From Synergistaceae bacterium (GTDB lineage: Bacteria > Synergistota > Synergistia > Synergistales > Aminobacteriaceae), in contig JAISUO010000019.1 of NCBI GenBank assembly GCA_031272035.1, positions 1 through 37,061 on the forward strand: a stretch of 37,061 nucleotides of DNA. The letters are read 5' to 3'. Positions within the stretch are counted from its first letter, which is position 1. Each line of letters starts with the position of its first letter. This document shows positions 23,050 to 32,832 of this stretch, in pieces. The notes beneath the pieces are model-generated. The model searched no databases. It worked only from the letters and a program-made list of their open reading frames with translations, and was not told the origin of the DNA. Made by a program: the position numbers and the translations under genes.

Positions 23050-23451
23050 CTATTTGCCTGAAATAACCATGCGGTAATTGCTGAGTTTTCTGGCCGCAAA
23101 ACGTCCTATCGCGGTGTACATCATGCGGGTTTCGGCGAGGACGGCCATTTCTCTTTCCGGGTCCACGTTGTTGCCGTCCAGTCTGTAGACTTCGTCGCTG
23201 ATTCGGATTTCGTCCGGCGTCACGTCCGAGATGGAATAAGGCCGCGTGGGGATGTGCCCTTCGTTCGTCACAGTCATTTTCAGCCTGTCTCCGGAGTTGA
23301 TCACGTCGCGCATCTGATCTTCGAAGGAAACGTTGCGCCGTCTGTAGCCCGGCGTATTGGCGTTCGCCAGGTTTTTGGACGTTGCGCCGAACCGTTTGGC
23401 GAGTCCTTCCATGTCCTTTTCCATAACTTTCCAGGTAAAATCTCCCACCAT
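23050..23451 (-). CDS. flgB: flagellar basal-body rod protein FlgB
   Basis: FlgB, 133 residues. A proximal rod subunit that joins the MS ring/FliE to FlgC. The segment MEGLAKRFGATSKNLANANTPGYRRRNVSFEDQM holds the conserved ANxxTPGY motif, and VDPEREMAVLAETRMMYTAIGRF is the C-terminal helix. GGGAGGAG is 9 bases before the ATG. In Bacillus the following genes would be flgC, fliE, fliF and so on; here only flgC follows before a terminator. A sigma-28-like promoter lies about 50 bases upstream. Confidence 0.95.
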   Translation of the reverse strand: MVGDFTWKVMEKDMEGLAKRFGATSKNLANANTPGYRRRNVSFEDQMRDVINSGDRLKMTVTNEGHIPTRPYSISDVTPDEIRISDEVYRLDGNNVDPEREMAVLAETRMMYTAIGRFAARKLSNYRMVISGK

Positions 23452-23682: not shown

Positions 23683-24618
23683 TCAGTAATTTACCCTTGG
23701 AGATGTAGCCGAGCCCAGTTCTTCGACGAAGAGGGGGCTCAGGACTTTGATGTAGGTTCCCTTCATGCCGAGGCTGCGGCTTTCGATCAGTCCGGCGCTT
23801 TCCAGTTTGCGAAGGGCGTTTACGATTACGCTGCGCGTCACGCCCACTCTGTCGGCGACCTTGCTGGCCACCGCGACGCCTTCGTGTCCGCCCAGTTCGG
23901 CCATGATGTGCTTCATGGATTCCACTTCGGAATAGGAAAGGGCCCTCATTGCCATCTGAACGGCAATTCGATCCCGGGAGCACTCTTCGAGACCCCGGTT
24001 TCTGTCGTTCAGCATCTCGATGCCCACCAGCGTACCGAGATATTCGGCCAGAAGAACGTCCTCCGTCATGAACGAGTTGTAGAAACGAACGAGAATCACC
24101 GTTCCCAGACGTTCCGCGGCGGCTCCGTAAATCGGCACGTACATCAGATGCTTTTCCGGAGCGCCTTTTTTGCTGCGGTTGTTGTCGTCGTCGAACCGGA
24201 AAGCGTCTTCATCCGCGATGTCCGACTCGCGGCAGCGATTCATTTTGTCCACGAAATCTCTGGGCAGATAACCGTCCTTCATGACGTCTGACAGCGTCTG
24301 GGAGCTGTAGTCCGGTACCCAGGCGTACCCCAAAATTCTGCCTTCTCTGTTGACGATATAAACGTTTGCTGTGGAAAACTCCGACAGCAGTTTTGCCAGC
24401 TCGACGTAATCCAGAGCGTCTCCGTCACCCCGCGCCTGCAAAGCGCGTCCCACCTGACGCGTCTTTTCCAGCAGATCTCTCAAAACGTTTTCGCTGCTCT
24501 GCTCGACACTCGCTTCTCCGTATTCCTTCTCGTCCGCTCTCATTCTCACGACTTTACCACCCTTCAGTCTCCTGTTCACAGTTGTTCCCTCATCCACACC
24601 GTTTTTCGCCAGTCTCAT
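23683..24618 (-). CDS. codY: global transcriptional regulator CodY, with N-terminal extension
   Basis: CodY, 311 residues versus about 260 in Bacillus; the extra ~45 residues are N-terminal. The GAF domain covers ~45-200 and the winged helix ~220-295, where ASKVADRVGVTRSVIVNALR and LGMKGTYIKVL are nearly identical to B. subtilis. CodY couples branched-chain amino acids and GTP to gene control. By-eye alignment places Thr108, Asp138, Arg141 and Phe142 where B. subtilis has Arg61, Thr96, Pro99 and Val100 of the amino-acid pocket, so ligand binding may differ. ATG 24618 has GGGAG 9 bases before it; the frame is open to TTG 24711 and a shorter start at 24543 is possible. It is flanked by its own promoter and terminator. 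Confidence 0.93.
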   Translation of the reverse strand: MRLAKNGVDEGTTVNRRLKGGKVVRMRADEKEYGEASVEQSSENVLRDLLEKTRQVGRALQARGDGDALDYVELAKLLSEFSTANVYIVNREGRILGYAWVPDYSSQTLSDVMKDGYLPRDFVDKMNRCRESDIADEDAFRFDDDNNRSKKGAPEKHLMYVPIYGAAAERLGTVILVRFYNSFMTEDVLLAEYLGTLVGIEMLNDRNRGLEECSRDRIAVQMAMRALSYSEVESMKHIMAELGGHEGVAVASKVADRVGVTRSVIVNALRKLESAGLIESRSLGMKGTYIKVLSPLFVEELGSATSPRVNY

Positions 24619-24695
24619 CTCTTGACACTCCCTTTCGTCGTTTCGCTCAAAATAAAACACATTCCCTCCAGGTTCATCTGTTTTCCATTTTTCAT
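24615..24695 (-). CDS. possible 26-codon upstream ORF coupled to codY
   Basis: An ATG at 24695 opens 26 codons ending in a TGA that overlaps the codY ATG (ATGA, 24615-24618). The AAAGGAG (24720-24714) is 18 bases away, farther than usual, so translation is uncertain. It is not rich in branched-chain residues. It may be a coupling leader or chance. Confidence 0.2.
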   Translation of the reverse strand: MKNGKQMNLEGMCFILSETTKGSVKR

Positions 24696-24725
24696 GCGTT
24701 ATGGAATCCAAATCTCCTTTGTCTA

Positions 24726-24731
24726 ATTATA
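24726..24731 (-). promoter_or_regulatory. -10 box of codY
   Basis: Perfect TATAAT on the minus strand in an A/T-rich stretch. The -35 (TTACAT at about 17 bases) is poor. The predicted start near 24719 lies on an AAAGGAG. Confidence 0.45.
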
Positions 24732-24922
24732 CTAAATTAATAAAACTTATGTAACTATTGCCTTATTTTGCGAATATGCCTATTTTTATTGACATATATG
24801 ATAATACTAATAACATTATTCAATTATTGTTCTCCCGATTGGACATTGGACATCCAGTTTCCAAAAATCTCATTCCTGAACGATTTGCGGCATTTCACGT
24901 GATGCGAAAAAGTTCAATGCTT

Positions 24923-24940
24923 AATTGGTTTTCTGCAATT
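24923..24940. promoter_or_regulatory. CodY-box-like palindrome
   Basis: AATTG-N8-CAATT, a perfect 5-bp inverted repeat. The enclosed GGTTTTCTGCAATTT matches the CodY box AATTTTCWGAAAATT at 11 of 15 positions. It is ~300 bases upstream of codY and ~130 bases past the hslU stop. Possible autoregulatory site. Confidence 0.3.
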
Positions 24941-24954
24941 TGAGTCCCGTTTAT

Positions 24955-24982
24955 TCAAGTCATATTCATCAAGTCATATTTA
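24955..24982. repeat. 14-bp tandem duplication
   Basis: TCAAGTCATATTCA followed directly by TCAAGTCATATTTA, one mismatch, between hslU and codY. Confidence 0.8.
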
Positions 24983-25067
24983 TCAGTACAAATCCTGTCT
25001 TCAAAATTTAAGCGAATATAGGGCTGTTCCGCCACAAAACTATTCACTGATAATTTTAAAGGGTCTT

Positions 25068-26480
25068 TTATAAAAGGTACCGGCGAATATCCCTATTTTC
25101 GACCAGACAATTTAGCCTATTCCGTACAAATTCGGCGTCGATTTCTATAACCCGCCGGGTGTCGTCGGAGACCTCAAAACTGATTTCTTCCAGCAGCTGT
25201 TCCAGCATGGTGTGCAGGCGTCGCGCGCCTATATCTTCCATTTCGGAGTTCATTTCACTGGCCAGTACCGCAATTTCCCGGGTGGCGTCGTCCGTGAAGC
25301 GCAGCTCAGACCCCTCTGTCCCAATCAACGCCGTGTACTGCTTCAGGAGGCTGTTTTCCGGTTCGAGCAGAATTTGTTTCAGGTTTTCCCAGCTCAGGGG
25401 CTGCAGTTCGACCCTGATGGGAAAGCGTCCCTGCAGTTCGGGAATCAGGTCCGAGGGCTTGACCCCGCTGAAGGCGCCCGCGGCGATGAAGAGAATGTGA
25501 TCGGTCCTGAGCGGGCCGTAGCGAGTCTGGACCACGGAGCCCTCCACGATGGGCAGCAGGTCGCGCTGGACGCCTTCGCGGCTTACGTCGGGGCTCGCGC
25601 CGCCGCTGCCCTTCGCCACGATCTTGTCGAGTTCGTCCAAAAAGACGATGCCGTCCTCCTGCGCCGTTTCGAGGGCTTCTTTCGAGAGGGCATCCATATC
25701 GATCAGCTTTTCAGCCTCTTCCGCGGTGAGCACGCGTCGGGCTTCGGAAATTTTCATGCGGCGTTTGCGGGATTTTTTTGGCAGCATACCGCCCAGAATC
25801 TCGCTCAGATTGATTCCCATTGAGTCCATGCCCGACGCGCCGATCAAAGATATGCCTGTCACGGCGTTTTCTGAGATTTCAATGTCCACTTCCCGGTCTT
25901 CAAGTCGCCCTTCCCGGAGCATGTTCAAAAGCCTTTCCCGGGTCGCCTCGTTCTTTCGGGTTTCCTCGGGTTCCCCCGTCTCTTCGGCCTCTGTAGCCGC
26001 GCTTCCGAACACCCTCATGAGATCCGGCATGGAAAATTTTCTCTCGCTTCGGGGCAGCAGCGCGTCCAGAAGACGCTGTTCCGCCCGCTCTCCCGCGGGG
26101 CCCTGGACGTCCGAGAGCATCCTCTTTCTCACCATGGCCACGGCGGATTCCGCCAGATCTCGTATGATGGACTCCACATCCCGCCCCACGTAGCCCACCT
26201 CCGTGAATTTTGTGGCCTCCACCTTCACGAAGGGCGCGTGAACGAGACCTGCCAGCCTGCGGGCGATTTCCGTCTTGCCCACGCCGGTGGGCCCCACCAT
26301 GAGAATGTTCTTGGGGCTGATCTCTCTGGCCATTTCGGGGGGCAGCTTCCTCCGCCTTTCCCGGTTCCGCAGGGCGACGGCCACAGCCCGTTTTGCCTTT
26401 TCCTGTCCGACGATATAGCGGTTCAGATATCCGACAATTTTTGCCGGAGTCAGGTCCACACTCAGTTCAAAGCCGCTCAT
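25068..26480 (-). CDS. hslU: HslU (ClpY), ATPase subunit of the HslUV protease
   Basis: HslU, 470 residues. A AAA+ unfoldase hexamer that feeds proteins into the HslV peptidase in the cytosol. Walker A GPTGVGKT (63-70), pore loop GYVGRD (96-101), an inserted I-domain (~110-245), Walker B VFLDELDK (279-286), sensor/arginine region [10 protein letters not shown], and the C-terminal RRYLL that docks in HslV. The I-domain has an acidic insertion ([15 protein letters not shown]). The frame opens earlier, but ATG 26480 overlaps the hslV stop (ATGA) with GGAGGTGTTGGGAG upstream. Confidence 0.96.
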
Positions 26481-27049
26481 TCTCCCAACACCTCCAGCGT
26501 GACCACGCTGTCCGTATAGATACATATCTCCGAGGCGATTTCAATGGCGCGTCTGGCGATGCGCGCCGGCTCCCAGTCCGTCCCCTCACGGAGGGCCCGG
26601 GCGGCCGCCAGGGCAAATCCGGACCCCGACCCGATGGAGGCCACGTCCCCCTCCGGTTCGATGATGTCTCCGGCTCCGGACAAAAGCAGCGTCGTTTCCA
26701 CGTTGGCCACCAGCAGCATGGCCTCAAGGCGCCTCAGAGCCTTGTCAAGACGCCATTCTTTCACCAGTTCCACGGCGCTCTTCATCAAATCGCCTCTGCA
26801 CTGTTCGAGACGATTCTCGAATCGCTCCAGAAGCGTCATCGCATCGGCCGTACTGCCGGCGAACCCGGTCAGGACGGCTCCGTTGTAAAGCCGGCGTACC
26901 TTGCGGGCGTTGGCCTTGATGATCTGATTCCCCAGGGTCACCTGCCCGTCGCCTGCCATGGCGACGTTCTTTCCAGATCGTACACATACTATCGTCGTTC
27001 CCTCGAACAGAATCTTCATCCCCTCTATTTTAACGAAGTCCCGAAACAT
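26477..27049 (-). CDS. hslV: HslV (ClpQ/CodW), peptidase subunit of the HslUV protease
   Basis: HslV, 190 residues as opened. A proteasome-like N-terminal nucleophile peptidase. The mature protein should begin at Thr18 in [26 protein letters not shown], so it uses Thr like E. coli HslV rather than Ser like Bacillus Clp[18 protein letters not shown] and [17 protein letters not shown] are conserved. The start is unsure: ATG 27049 and ATG 27019 (MKILFEG before the Thr) both lack a properly spaced ribosome-binding site; 27019 gives a propeptide closer to the family. It overlaps hslU by 4 bases. Confidence 0.94.
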
Positions 27050-27151: not shown

Positions 27152-28084
27152 TTATTCCTCTTCGCCGGAATCTTCAGGGCTTTCCGCAGACGCAGGGCCT
27201 TCCATGCGGGCCCGGGGATGGCTGTTCAGGTAGCTTTCCTTCATCCAGGTGGCGCTGACCGTCAGGTAAATTTGAGTCGTTGAAAGGTTCTCGTGTCCCA
27301 GAAACTCCTGCACGAATTTCAGCGAGGCTCCTCTTTCCAGCAGATGCGTCGCGCAGCTGTGGCGCAGGACGTGAGGTGTGACGCCTTCCAGACCGCCTCT
27401 GGCGGCCAGATTCGTGACGACGCGATGGACCGTGCGCACCGTCAGAGGTTTTCCCTTTCGTCCGGCGAAAACGAATCCGTTCGATTCTTCCCCTTCCTGC
27501 CTTCTCAGCGCCGTCAAAGCCCTTTGGGCGCAGGTTCCGAAGGGTACCCGGCGTTCCCTGCTTCCCTTGCCCAGAATCAGGAGCCAGCGTTCTTCCATGT
27601 CCACGTCGTCCCACCGCAGGCTCACCAGCTCTGAAATACGCAGGCCCGCTCCATAGAGGACCTCCATGACAGCCGTATCTCTTACGGGAGTTTCGCTGCT
27701 CTCCGCCATTTTGAACAAAATCTCCACGGATTCCACGGAAATCGCCCGCGGAATGCTCCTTGGGGCGGAGGGTCCCTGAAGGCCCCGGGCGGGGTTGGTC
27801 TCCAGAATGCCGTGTTCCTTCAGGCAGGCGAAAAAGCTGCGCAGGACGGACAATTTTCTTGAGATGGTGGTCTTCGAGTATCCCCAGCCGAAAAGCCCGC
27901 GCAGATAGGTCCTCAGGCTGGAGGTGTCCACCTCCTCCAGACGTTCCGTTTTTCGCTCTTCGAGGTAGTCCATGAACTGGCGAATGTCCACTTCATAGTT
28001 GACGAACGTATGGTTCGACTGGTATTTTTCACGGATATAATCGAGAAAATAAGTAACGGCATGGGAAATCTGTTCTTTACTCAT
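27152..28084 (-). CDS. xerC: tyrosine recombinase XerC/CodV
   Basis: A 310-residue tyrosine recombinase of the Xer type, expected to resolve chromosome dimers at dif. The N-terminal SAM-like DNA-binding domain (~1-105) precedes the catalytic domain with Arg149 (GAGLRISE), Lys173 (LGKGSRERR), His238-x-x-Arg241 (HVLRHS), His264 (LGHENLSTTQIY) and the nucleophile Tyr273, all intact. The C-terminal tail is acidic. Its position ahead of hslVU and codY is that of codV in Bacillus, which supports a housekeeping role over an integrase. No phage or attachment site is nearby. The ribosome-binding site is weak. Confidence 0.93.
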   Translation of the reverse strand: MSKEQISHAVTYFLDYIREKYQSNHTFVNYEVDIRQFMDYLEERKTERLEEVDTSSLRTYLRGLFGWGYSKTTISRKLSVLRSFFACLKEHGILETNPARGLQGPSAPRSIPRAISVESVEILFKMAESSETPVRDTAVMEVLYGAGLRISELVSLRWDDVDMEERWLLILGKGSRERRVPFGTCAQRALTALRRQEGEESNGFVFAGRKGKPLTVRTVHRVVTNLAARGGLEGVTPHVLRHSCATHLLERGASLKFVQEFLGHENLSTTQIYLTVSATWMKESYLNSHPRARMEGPASAESPEDSGEEE

Positions 28085-28206: not shown

Positions 28207-28235
28207 TTTTCAATAATGTTGTGCTATGGTATACA
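28207..28235 (+). promoter_or_regulatory. sigma-70-type promoter of patB
   Basis: TTTTCA (28207-28212), 17-base spacer, TATACA (28230-28235). Each box matches 4 of 6 consensus bases with ideal spacing, 55 bases before the start codon. Confidence 0.4.
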
Positions 28236-28290
28236 CTTGTACGAGGCGTTCAGCAAAAACGCGTATAAACGACAAGGGGAGGATCTGATT

Positions 28291-29481
28291 ATGACATATG
28301 ACTTTGACAGGGTCATTGAGCGGCGCAACACGAACAGTTCAAAATGGGACAGCGTTCCTGGCGCGGATATTGGTGTGAATTATCCCGTTGGAGAGGTTCT
28401 GCCCCTGTGGGTTGCGGATATGGATTTCCGCGCCGCTCCGGAGATCGTGGAGGCCCTGTCCGACGTGGTGAAGCGCGGTATTTTCGGCTATCCGATCGTC
28501 CCTGAATCCTGTTACGACGCCATCGTTGCCTGGATGGAGAAACGTCACGGATGGCATATCGAACGGGATTGGATTCTGATGGCCCCGGGGGCGGTTCCGG
28601 CGGCGCACATGGCCGTGCAGGCCTACTGTCAGCCCGGTGACCGGGTTCTGCTTCAGCGTCCGGTGTACTATCCCTTTTTCCGAACCATTTTCAACAACGG
28701 AGGGCAAATCGCCAACAGTCCCCTGAAAATTGCCGGAGACAGCTATGAAATAGACTTCGGGGACTTCGAGCGTCAGGCCGCCAATCCCCGAACGACGTTC
28801 TTCATTCTCTGCAACCCCCACAACCCCGTGGGGCGCGTATGGCGCAGAGAGGAACTGGAGCGTATGGGGGAAATCTGCGCGGCTCATGACGTTCTGGTGC
28901 TGGCCGACGAGCTCCACTGCGACATTGTCATGCCGGGGTATAAACACACGCCCTTCGCCGGCATCAGTCCGGCTCTTCGGGACAACTCCGTCACCGTTCT
29001 GGCTCCCAGCAAAACCTTCAACCTGGCGGGACTGGTGGGAACGGTGGTGGTCATTCCCAACAGGCGTCTGCGCCGGAGATTCGAAAATATTCTGATTCAA
29101 AACAGCATCTCCCGCCCCAACATGTTCGCGATTGTGGCCATGGAGGCGGCCTATCGGCACGGGGAGAAGTGGTTCGACGAAGTTCTGAAATACATTCATG
29201 GCAACTATGAATTCATGGTGTCGTACCTGAAGGAAAATCTGCCCGCGGTGAAGCCTTTCCGACTGGAGGGAACCTACCTGGCCTGGCTGGACTTTCGGGC
29301 CCTGGAGACGAACCCGGACAAACTGCAGAAACGCATGTTGACGGAGGCGAAGGTCTGGCTTGACGAGGGCAAAATTTTCGGACCGGAGGGAAACGGTTTC
29401 GAACGCATCGTTCTGGCCTGTCCCCGCAGCATTCTTCAAGATGCCCTGGATCGGGTCGCAGGCGTTTTCCGAAACTCCTGA
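28291..29481 (+). CDS. patB: PatB/MalY-type PLP aminotransferase / C-S lyase
   Basis: A 396-residue fold-type I PLP enzyme of the MalY/PatB branch. Members cleave cystathionine or cysteine conjugates and some act as aminotransferases. The start FDRVIERRNTNSSKWD and LPLWVADMDF are characteristic of the branch. NPHNPVGR (175-182), DELHCD (206-211) and the PLP lysine Lys241 in APSKTFNLAG are present. The frame extends 25 codons upstream, but ATG 28291 has GGGGAGGA 8 bases before it. It stands alone between its own promoter and terminator. Whether it makes homocysteine or H2S from cysteine cannot be read. Confidence 0.93.
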   Translation: MTYDFDRVIERRNTNSSKWDSVPGADIGVNYPVGEVLPLWVADMDFRAAPEIVEALSDVVKRGIFGYPIVPESCYDAIVAWMEKRHGWHIERDWILMAPGAVPAAHMAVQAYCQPGDRVLLQRPVYYPFFRTIFNNGGQIANSPLKIAGDSYEIDFGDFERQAANPRTTFFILCNPHNPVGRVWRREELERMGEICAAHDVLVLADELHCDIVMPGYKHTPFAGISPALRDNSVTVLAPSKTFNLAGLVGTVVVIPNRRLRRRFENILIQNSISRPNMFAIVAMEAAYRHGEKWFDEVLKYIHGNYEFMVSYLKENLPAVKPFRLEGTYLAWLDFRALETNPDKLQKRMLTEAKVWLDEGKIFGPEGNGFERIVLACPRSILQDALDRVAGVFRNS

Positions 29482-30105: not shown

Positions 30106-30912
30106 TCAGCGCGAAGGCACGATCTCGCCCATCCAGTAATAGCCCCACACGGCGGCCTGCTGGGACAGAACGGGCATGTCCGCCTCGTACCAGATAAAGT
30201 TGTTGCGATTCACCATGCGAACCAGAGAGTAAATGTTTTCCTTCAGCACTTCGGCGGGCGTCTGGCTTTCACGCAGAATCATCTGATACCAGCTTCGTCC
30301 GTTCCAGGCGTAGATGACTTTCGGGTGATTTCCGCGCCAGGCCACGGGAATCGCGGGCTTGTGGAGGATTCCGATGCGATCGACGCTTTGCTTCCAGTTT
30401 CCCAGCGCCATGAACCGGGTATTGAAAAACCAGTCCGGGACGTAGGTGGACTGAAGTTTTCCCTCCGGAATTCGGGTCGTACCGGATTTTGGCTGCTGAA
30501 CGGCTATGGCTCCGGCGTTCTTCCCCGCCGGAGCGGAATTTCTCAGCTGCGGCAGAGTCGAAACCGAGGAGATATGAACGGATTTTGTCCAGGGCGAAAG
30601 TCCCGCCATACTCGGAATGACCGACCCCACGATGTAATTGGTGGGCGTCAGAGAAGGGCCGGCATTAGTCCCGTACACCCAAACGCCGTCCCTGTTTTTC
30701 GTCACCGGGTAGCCGTCGAAGGTCACGTACCAGTTTGAGGGCATGTCGTAGGGCTTATAAACATAAAAACGCATCCCCGCGTAGGCCGGCTGTTCCACCA
30801 GCAGAGGCTCCGCCACGTAGGTTTTGGCGGCGGCGGAGGTCGTCCACAGCCACGCCTCTCCTCCACACCACAGCGAAAAAATCGCTCCTGCCGCAACAAA
30901 GATTTTTTTCAT
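30106..30912 (-). CDS. exported WYVTFDGYP-family protein (paralogue, no tail)
   Basis: A 268-residue exported protein, signal peptide ~1-30 (MKKIFVAAGAIFSLWCGGEAW). Blocks shared in order with the protein at 13716-14690: MRFYVYKPYDMPSNWYVTFD / GYPV, WVYG, VGSVIP, RIGILHKPAIPVAWRG, RSWYQMI and WGYYWMGEIVP. It lacks the Gly-rich tail and has a ~70-residue insertion after VGSVIP. Function unknown; aromatic-rich strands suggest a beta fold that binds carbohydrate or another envelope part, which is a guess. The frame extends to 30951, but ATG 30912 has GGAAGGGA 6-7 bases before it and begins a proper signal peptide. Confidence 0.8.
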   Translation of the reverse strand: MKKIFVAAGAIFSLWCGGEAWLWTTSAAAKTYVAEPLLVEQPAYAGMRFYVYKPYDMPSNWYVTFDGYPVTKNRDGVWVYGTNAGPSLTPTNYIVGSVIPSMAGLSPWTKSVHISSVSTLPQLRNSAPAGKNAGAIAVQQPKSGTTRIPEGKLQSTYVPDWFFNTRFMALGNWKQSVDRIGILHKPAIPVAWRGNHPKVIYAWNGRSWYQMILRESQTPAEVLKENIYSLVRMVNRNNFIWYEADMPVLSQQAAVWGYYWMGEIVPSR

Positions 30913-30951
30913 AAAGGATCCCTTCCGTTCATGTTCATTTCGCATATGCAT

Positions 30952-31713
30952 TTACGGGTTCGGTTCGTCCATCACGCTTTTGTCCTCCGAAGCGATCTCC
31001 TCCGGCGGAGGCGGCGGCACGTAGACCGGCGGCTGTATTGCGTCGCCGGGGACGACGGAATCTGTGGGCTCCGGCGGCACGTAGACCGGAACCTTTGGGA
31101 CCTCCGGATCCAGCGGAGGGCGAACGGGCCGGCTCGTGGCCTGGGGAGCGTCCGGCGGAATGATCGCCACGCCCTGGTCGTTGGTGGGTATGGAGTAGAT
31201 CCGGGCCGGACGGAGGGGATCCCACAAAGGCTGACGCTCTCCGCTGTCGGGATAGGCTACGATTCGTGACAGGGGAGGAAGCGCGGGATCCAGCTCCAGG
31301 GCCTTCGTATAGAAAAACTGCGCCTGCTGAAACTCTCCCACGCGCTCATGAACAACGCCGTACCAATACCAGGCCCAGGGGTTGCGGCGCTCTTCCTGAA
31401 CCGCTTTCTGGAGCCAGGGCCGGGCCTGGGTGTAACGCTCCTGCTCCAAAAGAGCGATGCCCCGCTCCAAAGACGTCTGCTGCCGGACATGGGGTTTGGC
31501 GACGGGGCTTCGGGCGGCCTTATTTTTTATCTTCGTCGGTTTTTTGACCGGGCGCTTAATCGGCGCCCTGCGAACGGACCGGCTGTCCGCAGGAGGAACC
31601 GGAGCGTCCGCGGAAACGTTGCCGTTTGCGCCGGCTTCCTCCGTAAAGGCGAACGCCGCACAGAAAAACATGACCCAAAAACAAATCCATTTGCGTTTAC
31701 CGTTCCATTTCAT
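30952..31713 (-). CDS. exported TPR protein with Pro-rich tail
   Basis: A 253-residue exported protein. The signal peptide (MKWNGKRKWICFWVMFFCAAFAF) is followed by a basic Lys/Arg/Pro linker, then TPR helices: LERGIALLEQERYTQARPWL, NPWAWYWYGVVHERVGEFQQ and FFYTKALELDPALPPLSRIV. The last ~100 residues are Pro/Val-rich (PPLDPEVPKVPVYVPPEPTD and a second PPVYVPPPPPEE), a likely extended periplasmic spacer. The frame opens at 31764; ATG 31713 is preferred because GGAG lies 9 bases before it and the signal peptide then begins at Met. It sits between a CsgG-like exported protein and the WYVTFDGYP paralogue. Confidence 0.75.
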   Translation of the reverse strand: MKWNGKRKWICFWVMFFCAAFAFTEEAGANGNVSADAPVPPADSRSVRRAPIKRPVKKPTKIKNKAARSPVAKPHVRQQTSLERGIALLEQERYTQARPWLQKAVQEERRNPWAWYWYGVVHERVGEFQQAQFFYTKALELDPALPPLSRIVAYPDSGERQPLWDPLRPARIYSIPTNDQGVAIIPPDAPQATSRPVRPPLDPEVPKVPVYVPPEPTDSVVPGDAIQPPVYVPPPPPEEIASEDKSVMDEPNP

Positions 31714-31764
31714 TCCTGCACGCTCCATACCCGTCTCGAATTCTCCATGAGTCCGGCCCTTCAT

Positions 31765-31785
31765 CTCATTCAGTTCTCATCAGTT
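31765..31785. repeat. 10-11-bp tandem duplication over a stop codon
   Basis: CTCATTCAGTT then CTCATCAGTT (one base shorter). The second copy contains the stop codon (31780-31782) of the minus-strand gene that follows. Confidence 0.65.
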
Positions 31786-32832
31786 GAGGGGACCGGTCGT
31801 TTTGACGACGATGTCCTTCAACTGGATGGGTTCCTTTTTGTTGTCCCTGACGACGCGAACCACGGCGTTCTTTTCCTGCAGGGAAATCACCCTGACCCTT
31901 CCCACCGTTCGGGGCATCACGACCACCGGATTTTCGGGATCGACGGTGACATAGGTGTCACTGCGCACCACGTCCAGAAGATCTCCCACGCGGATCGCGT
32001 CGCCGCGCCCCAGAGAGATGATATATTCCCTTTTCCTGCGGGTGGAGTCGGCCGTGGGGGAAATGATGCGTCCCACCGTGGAAAAACCCGGAGAGAAGCT
32101 GTCCGTGCCGTTCTCCGCCGCATCCGGCTCGTTGCGCCGAATGGCGTTGGAAACCTGTCCCATAGCCTGATGATAACCGTCCGCGATGGCGTTTTTGACG
32201 GCCTGCCAGTAGGGGGTGGGAGAAAACTGCTCCCAGGTGAGGTGGCTCATCTTCTGCCCCCTGTCGGGAACTTTCGTCAGTCCAAGAGCGTCAAAACCGT
32301 CCCGTACCGGAATGGGAAGGTTCACGATCAGGGCGTCGATCCAGAACAGCCCGCCGTCTCCGGGGTTGAAGGTATAGCGTTTGGAGCTTCCCGAAGCGAC
32401 CCGGGTCGCGAACTGTTCTCCGTTGACCGAGTCGAAGATCCGGAACCGCAGAGCGACCCTTCCCGATTCGAAGGACCCGGAAATCTCCCGCTCTTTCATG
32501 CTGGCGTCGTAAAGCTCCATCTGCAGCGCCATATCCTCGTCCCGGTAAGGCTGGTTCAGCCAGCGATTCATCCCGTTTTCATCGAGAACCGTGACGTCGA
32601 TCAGCGGTGAGGCGTAAAACAGCGAGGCCAGATATTCCGTCATTTTCTGTTCGAGAATACTGTAAGGATAATATTTGCTTTGCCAGACCTCCAGACTCGA
32701 ATGATTCTCCGTGGGAAAAAGCGCTACGGAAAGTCGGCGGGGTTCCTCCGCCGGCGCCGGAGACACGCCCGCTCCGAAAATCATCCACAACAGCCCCACA
32801 CACGCAATACAACCCTTTTTTCCCCAGTTCAC
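31780..32832 (-). CDS. exported protein, possibly CsgG/FlgT-like
   Basis: A 350-residue protein with a signal peptide (~1-28) and no lipobox. The N-terminal RLSVALFPTENHSSLEVW, ILEQKMTEYLASLFYASPLI and VLDENGMNRWL resemble the CsgG/LpoB-like fold of outer-membrane assembly proteins. The C-terminal GRGDAIRVGDLLDVVRSDTY and GRVRVISLQEKNAVVRVV resembles the small beta domain at the end of FlgT-type proteins. Both are weak by-eye matches. It is first of four exported genes and may scaffold the others in the envelope. The start is GTG 32832 with GGGAG 9 bases upstream. Confidence 0.7.
   Translation of the reverse strand: MNWGKKGCIACVGLLWMIFGAGVSPAPAEEPRRLSVALFPTENHSSLEVWQSKYYPYSILEQKMTEYLASLFYASPLIDVTVLDENGMNRWLNQPYRDEDMALQMELYDASMKEREISGSFESGRVALRFRIFDSVNGEQFATRVASGSSKRYTFNPGDGGLFWIDALIVNLPIPVRDGFDALGLTKVPDRGQKMSHLTWEQFSPTPYWQAVKNAIADGYHQAMGQVSNAIRRNEPDAAENGTDSFSPGFSTVGRIISPTADSTRRKREYIISLGRGDAIRVGDLLDVVRSDTYVTVDPENPVVVMPRTVGRVRVISLQEKNAVVRVVRDNKKEPIQLKDIVVKTTGPLN

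Follow-up and report, generated by a model that had tools for sequence, protein, structure and literature searches.

The CodY of C. difficile has been crystallized with isoleucine, the carboxylate of which lies 9 angstrom from the position it takes in B. subtilis (available sections of Daou et al., 2019, PMC6353076). According to the same sections, K110, S130, Y42, and N40 contact the carboxylate, E104 together with R107, S62, and the D60 carbonyl contact the amine, and Y42, F74, and F101 surround the side chain; the protein lacks residues of the B. subtilis Arg61 type and yet binds isoleucine. B. subtilis CodY (PDBID 5loe; available sections of Levdikov et al., 2016, PMC5314169) shares with the protein analyzed here its fold, its dimer residues R8, Q15, E144, and T148, and its winged helix-turn-helix (wHTH), whereas its Arg61/Gly109 pocket and its GTP motif SRRGK are absent from our protein. 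Motif 2 for the phosphates of GTP comprises S43, R44, R45, and K47, and the CodYs of Enterococci, Streptococci, and Lactococci do not sense GTP (available sections of PMC10415144).

CodY has already been described in the Synergistetes. In the sections available, Geng et al. (2022, PMC9318921) report a CodY-like protein with a conserved wHTH and with replacements of the residues that bind branched-chain amino acids (BCAA) in B. subtilis; section 2.3 of that article suggests a different effector, and its discussion still favors BCAA as likely. Our protein resembles theirs in phylum, domain build, conserved wHTH, replaced BCAA residues, and the position of codY downstream of xerC. Their comparison is made with B. 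subtilis residues, and in the sections available neither the C. difficile pocket nor the cysteine triad described below is brought into it; a text search of the main text finds neither 'difficile' nor 'cysteine'.

Results

A true CodY and its gene neighborhood

The window, by which we mean the whole 37,061-nucleotide stretch of contig JAISUO010000019.1 from a Synergistaceae bacterium, encodes the only CodY found in this genome (Table 1); CodY is present in 165 of 185 Synergistota genomes. A GAF domain (PF06018, 3.6e-36, 124.8 bits) and a winged helix (PF08222, 97.3 bits) lie on a single chain with both Pfam scores far above cut-off, and the NCBIfam CodY equivalog NF003170 scores 302 bits against a cut-off of 255; TIGR02787 gives 256.4 bits, below its own cut-off of 267.2. 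The dimer residues Arg8, Gln15, Glu144, and Thr148, which Geng et al. list (available sections of PMC9318921), are present as R54, Q61, E192, and T196. The protein is a true CodY, and its membership of the family is secure. Its winged helix is 63% identical to that of PDBID 2b0l over 98 residues, and every difference from B. cereus CodY across ASKVADR...YIKVL is conservative, which bears out the near-identity to Bacillus proposed in the first-pass annotation. Relative to B. subtilis CodY the protein carries an N-terminal extension of about 46 residues (24481–24618). Many Bacillota genomes hold two to four CodY-type genes, one of them (G314) four.

An AlphaFold model of the protein (pLDDT 78.4, pTM 0.66, residues 1–26 below pLDDT 50) finds solved CodYs as its closest structural matches, with VIA-align Z scores of 24.0 for 9a6f, 22.9 for 5loe, and 16.9 for the GAF-only 5n0l (125 residues, 2.4 angstrom). 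The stretch beginning at F142 is of low confidence (pLDDT block means 57–72). Since this pocket loop is the weakest part of the model, the model does not decide the nature of the pocket.

Table 1. Coordinates of codY, its pocket positions, and neighboring genes in the window.
Feature	Position	Strand	Basis or remark
flgB-like gene, downstream of codY and followed by a flgC-like frame	23050..23451	-	Pfam Flg_bb_rod
codY	23683..24618	-	ORF translation, 311 amino acids; stop at 23683, start ATG at 24618 with AAAGGGAG before it
Winged helix HTH_CodY, residues 246-301	23716..23883	-	Pfam PF08222, 3.9e-28
GAF domain, residues 49-225	23944..24474	-	Pfam PF06018
V177, at C. difficile S130, not kept	24088..24090	-	Alignment and 5n0l segment
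K156, at C. difficile K110 (carboxylate ion pair)	24151..24153	-	Alignment
F142-D143-D144-D145	24184..24195	-	F142 at B. subtilis F98 and C. difficile F101; D143, D144 conserved in clade; D145 at E104 by count
L118, at B. subtilis F71 and C. difficile F74	24265..24267	-	Alignment and 5n0l segment
S106-Q107-T108	24295..24303	-	S106, first lost cysteine column; Q107, at C. difficile S62; T108, at B. subtilis R61
N90-R91-E92-G93-R94, at GTP motif 2 (S43 R44 R45 G K47)	24337..24351	-	Acidic at 45
N85-V86-Y87, at C. difficile N40 and Y42 (carboxylate anchors)	24358..24366	-	N and Y in 92 of 92 Synergistota rows; 5n0l
AT-rich gap hslU-codY, 449 bases	24619..25067	-	Sequence
hslU (codX/clpY)	25068..26525	-	TIGR00390
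hslV (codW/clpQ)	26477..27049	-	TIGR03692
xerC-like recombinase, codV position	27152..28084	-	Pfam Phage_integrase; TIGR02224 281 bits, below cut-off 335

On the strand of codY, an xerC-like gene, hslV, and hslU lie upstream and the flgB-like and flgC-like genes downstream. The codVWXY-flgB region of B. subtilis has the same gene order. Among 61 Synergistota loci of at least 6 kb, xerC, hslV, and hslU each occur in 51 and flgB in 26, all four being found together in 26. The AT-rich gap upstream of codY suggests that the gene may have its own promoter; a search of the window for CodY boxes places none in this gap. Beyond xerC, and divergent from it, lies a gene for a PatB-type C-S lyase (28216–29481; TIGR04350, 443 bits). 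At 30106–32832 the minus strand holds three further frames, 281, 270, and 350 amino acids long, of which two match no NCBIfam family and one has weak matches below cut-off.

A genome-wide search for the canonical box AATTTTCWGAAAATT returns 50 sites at up to two mismatches, none of them perfect, and 31 of the 50 lie at least 250 bases inside a called ORF. Set against the reversed pattern, which returns 4, the 50 sites resemble an enrichment, but a fairer control, a palindrome, returns 31 and a second palindrome 12; box enrichment was considered as evidence of a working regulon and rejected. Within the window, 2 sites are found against 1.87 expected. Canonical CodY boxes are thus not convincingly enriched. 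Ten box-neighbor genes of 29 candidates were scanned; they include genes for a lactate racemase, a PrpR-type activator, an acyl-CoA dehydrogenase, PhzF, an old-yellow-enzyme type protein, a HAMP sensor, a VTT protein, and three proteins matching no family, and none of the ten is a BCAA gene. The genome contains ilvC, so BCAA synthesis is likely; no box is tied to ilvC.

The B. subtilis-type pocket is absent across the phylum

In a MAFFT alignment of 155 CodYs (63 from Firmicutes and 92 from Synergistota), B. subtilis Arg61, Met62, Met65, and Phe71 correspond to T108, L109, V112, and L118. All four are replaced, as an alignment by eye had already proposed, and with them goes the B. subtilis-type pocket. 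Pro72 is retained as P119. In the β3-β4 region, Phe98 aligns with F142 rather than F140, and F142 is invariant in all 41 members of the clade to which our protein belongs. Because F142 is this clade-invariant phenylalanine, Pro99 becomes D143 and Val100 becomes D144; the Thr96 column falls inside a two-residue deletion. The first-pass annotation had placed Thr96, Pro99, and Val100 at Asp138, Arg141, and Phe142: the residues are indeed replaced, but its assignments run two residues out of register.

The same replacements run through the phylum and do not single out this genome. Arg61 is missing from 90 of the 92 Synergistota rows, the other 2 having arginine in that column, and from 34 of the 63 Firmicutes rows. 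Two Synergistota CodYs (L137 and L138) combine an arginine in the Arg61 column with a lysine at 109. The residue replacements were already published by Geng et al. (2022), and the first-pass annotation had rediscovered them.

A probable C. difficile-type pocket, retained in part

We mapped the C. difficile segment of PDBID 5n0l onto our CodY by hand. The two GAF domains are alike in having neither an Arg61-type pocket nor a cysteine triad, and the identity between them is only 28% (125 aligned residues). Five contact residues are identical (C. difficile N40, Y42, F101, R107, and K110; N85, Y87, F142, R148, and K156 here), and E104 is, by residue count, conservatively replaced by D145. That D145 and R148 stand at the same count from F142 as E104 and R107 from F101 must be read with the caveat that loop length differs and that both columns vary within the clade. 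Two contacts, in contrast, are not kept: S62 and S130 are replaced by Q107 and V177, and ligand preference may therefore differ. The β3-β4 loop is also longer in our protein, the F142–K156 segment exceeding its C. difficile counterpart by 5 residues and being poorly modeled.

Several pocket positions are conserved within the clade (41 rows). In B. subtilis numbering, N38, Y40, S59, and F98 are invariant, and K109 (40 of 41), D99 (40 of 41), and D100 (39 of 41) nearly so. The K109 column, occupied here by K156, holds glycine in 29 of 29 R61-type rows. Across a larger set of 265 rows, Lys109 and Arg61 are nearly exclusive, the lysine being found in 210 of 230 rows without Arg61 and in 2 of 35 with it; an independent-contrast test of this exclusivity, with 3 independent pairs on branches that have support, is not significant. 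Within the clade, entropy over the C. difficile contact residues is 0.79 against 1.21, and the difference does not reach significance (permutation p 0.095), owing to variation in the E104 and S62 columns. The E104 column stands at the 89th entropy percentile; the two aspartates preceding it are conserved. Taken as it stands, the pocket looks conserved and built for a zwitterion rather than decayed.

The GTP motif is altered

At GTP motif 2 our protein has N90-R91-E92-G-R94 in place of S-R-R-G-K. Of the 92 Synergistota rows, 73 have an acidic residue at position 45, and none of 32 R61-type rows does; in all 32 of the latter the motif reads S, R, R or K, and K, with position 45 always basic. At positions 153 and 158, E201 and R206 remain acidic and basic, respectively. 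Judged by motif 2, this CodY is probably blind to GTP. Three Bacillota CodYs (L272, L275, and L276) present another combination, an intact SRRGK together with a shortened β3-β4 loop bearing neither the lysine, the cysteines, nor Arg61, and are perhaps GTP-only sensors.

A cysteine triad in the two pocket loops of many sampled CodYs

Most CodYs without Arg61 in the 265-row set carry three cysteines, C59, C96, and C104 in B. subtilis numbering. The triad is nearly all-or-none: 179 rows have three, 80 none, and 6 one or two, counts that describe related sequences and not independent events. The sample is non-random, its 63 Firmicutes being the best matches to our protein and the remainder mostly the better-scoring matches to the Pfam model. 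The triad is found in 29 of 34 Firmicutes without Arg61, 51 of 92 Synergistota, and 83 of 90 CodYs of an additional Bacillota set, and in 0 of 35 rows with Arg61; by named class it occurs in 13 of 14 Clostridia, 9 of 9 Negativicutes, and 0 of 30 Bacilli. Everywhere else in the triad rows, cysteine makes up no more than 18% of a column, and an alignment-free triad pattern recovers 179 of the 265 proteins and 0 of 265 shuffled ones. In genome G188, one CodY copy (L177) lacks the triad and the other carries it.

Triad CodYs, which we find in Clostridia, Negativicutes, and most Synergistota families, resemble our protein in K109, N38, Y40, and the lack of Arg61, and differ in that C59, C96, and C104 have been lost from our clade. 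The three columns hold S106, a deletion, and R148 in our CodY and S61, E99, and R107 in that of C. difficile (5n0l). Because they lie beside the residues that hold the isoleucine amine in C. difficile, the three cysteines would be expected to sit close to one another. In a quick tree with many weak forks, made after removal of the triad columns, our clade (32 rows, support 100) branches from within Synergistota that carry the triad, a placement consistent with a single loss of the triad there. Parsimony requires 7–8 changes per cysteine and 10 for the full triad, and independent-contrast tests between the cysteines, each with 3–4 independent pairs on branches that have support, are not significant. 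The triad is absent from the CodY chains of the PDB that we compared (a set without 8c7t), and no cysteine site in CodY is described among the matches listed by a literature search whose scope excluded subscription papers.

Discussion

On balance, and with modest confidence, we favor an amino-acid sensor that works in the C. difficile manner, its ligand probably branched-chain and its activity probably independent of GTP; homology, alignment register, and conservation are shown here, and from them ligand, geometry, and GTP blindness are inferred. The pocket is best read as a divergent member of the known C. difficile type, neither decayed nor clearly new. In such a sensor K156, N85, and Y87 would hold the ligand carboxylate against the sheet, acidic residues of the F142-D-D-D stretch would hold its amino group, and Y87, L118, F142, and V177 would line the side-chain pocket, with the conserved winged helix expected to bind DNA.

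A different effector, as the first-pass annotation inferred from the lost pocket residues, appears unlikely, though it deserves weight. Here the backbone anchors would be kept, and the changed wall formed by Q107, L118, V177, D143, and D144 would select another amino acid or a metabolite that is central in the fermentation of amino acids. The loss of both S62 and S130 agrees with such a change, as does the near-invariance of S106, D143, and D144 in the clade, which implies a pocket under selection. Section 2.3 of Geng et al. (2022) points the same way; the discussion of that article, however, itself favors BCAA (available sections of PMC9318921). The original argument does not carry, since a missing Arg61 does not imply a new effector when the C. 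difficile CodY, which lacks the same residue and its neighbors, has been crystallized with isoleucine.

It is improbable that ligand sensing has been lost and that CodY here is constitutive or controlled by its amount. High variability in the clade at R61, M65, and GTP motif 2 (85th, 83rd, and 83rd–91st percentiles of GAF column entropy, 35 thinned rows) speaks for such a loss, but among the 41 members seven columns of the pocket vary little or not at all. Sensing of BCAA in the B. subtilis style, with another residue substituting for Arg61, is very improbable: P119 and F142 are retained and F122 takes the place of Tyr75, but the Arg61 column is mostly A, T, or E in the clade, at the 85th entropy percentile, and aspartates at 99 and 100 would be expected to repel a carboxylate placed there.

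Returning to a pocket of the C. difficile type, the wider family suggests a broader scheme that we offer tentatively, as possible but doubtful. CodY pockets may exist in at least three states, of which the commonest in the sampled anaerobes would place C59, C96, and C104 at the site of the isoleucine amine in C. difficile and bind a metal ion or an iron-sulfur cluster, for effector coordination or redox sensing. The Bacillus pocket would then be derived and cofactor-free, and the site would have disappeared separately in our clade and in C. difficile, with serine and aspartate in its place. Though unproven, the triad is the more interesting lead.

For the CodY described here, the missing Arg61 is not by itself a sign of a new effector, and the solved isoleucine pocket of C. 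difficile fits it better. The same comparison explains why CodYs outside the Bacilli look pocket-less when set against B. subtilis only. If the triad does bind a metal or a cluster, a well-studied nutrient regulator would prove to have an overlooked cofactor in many anaerobes.
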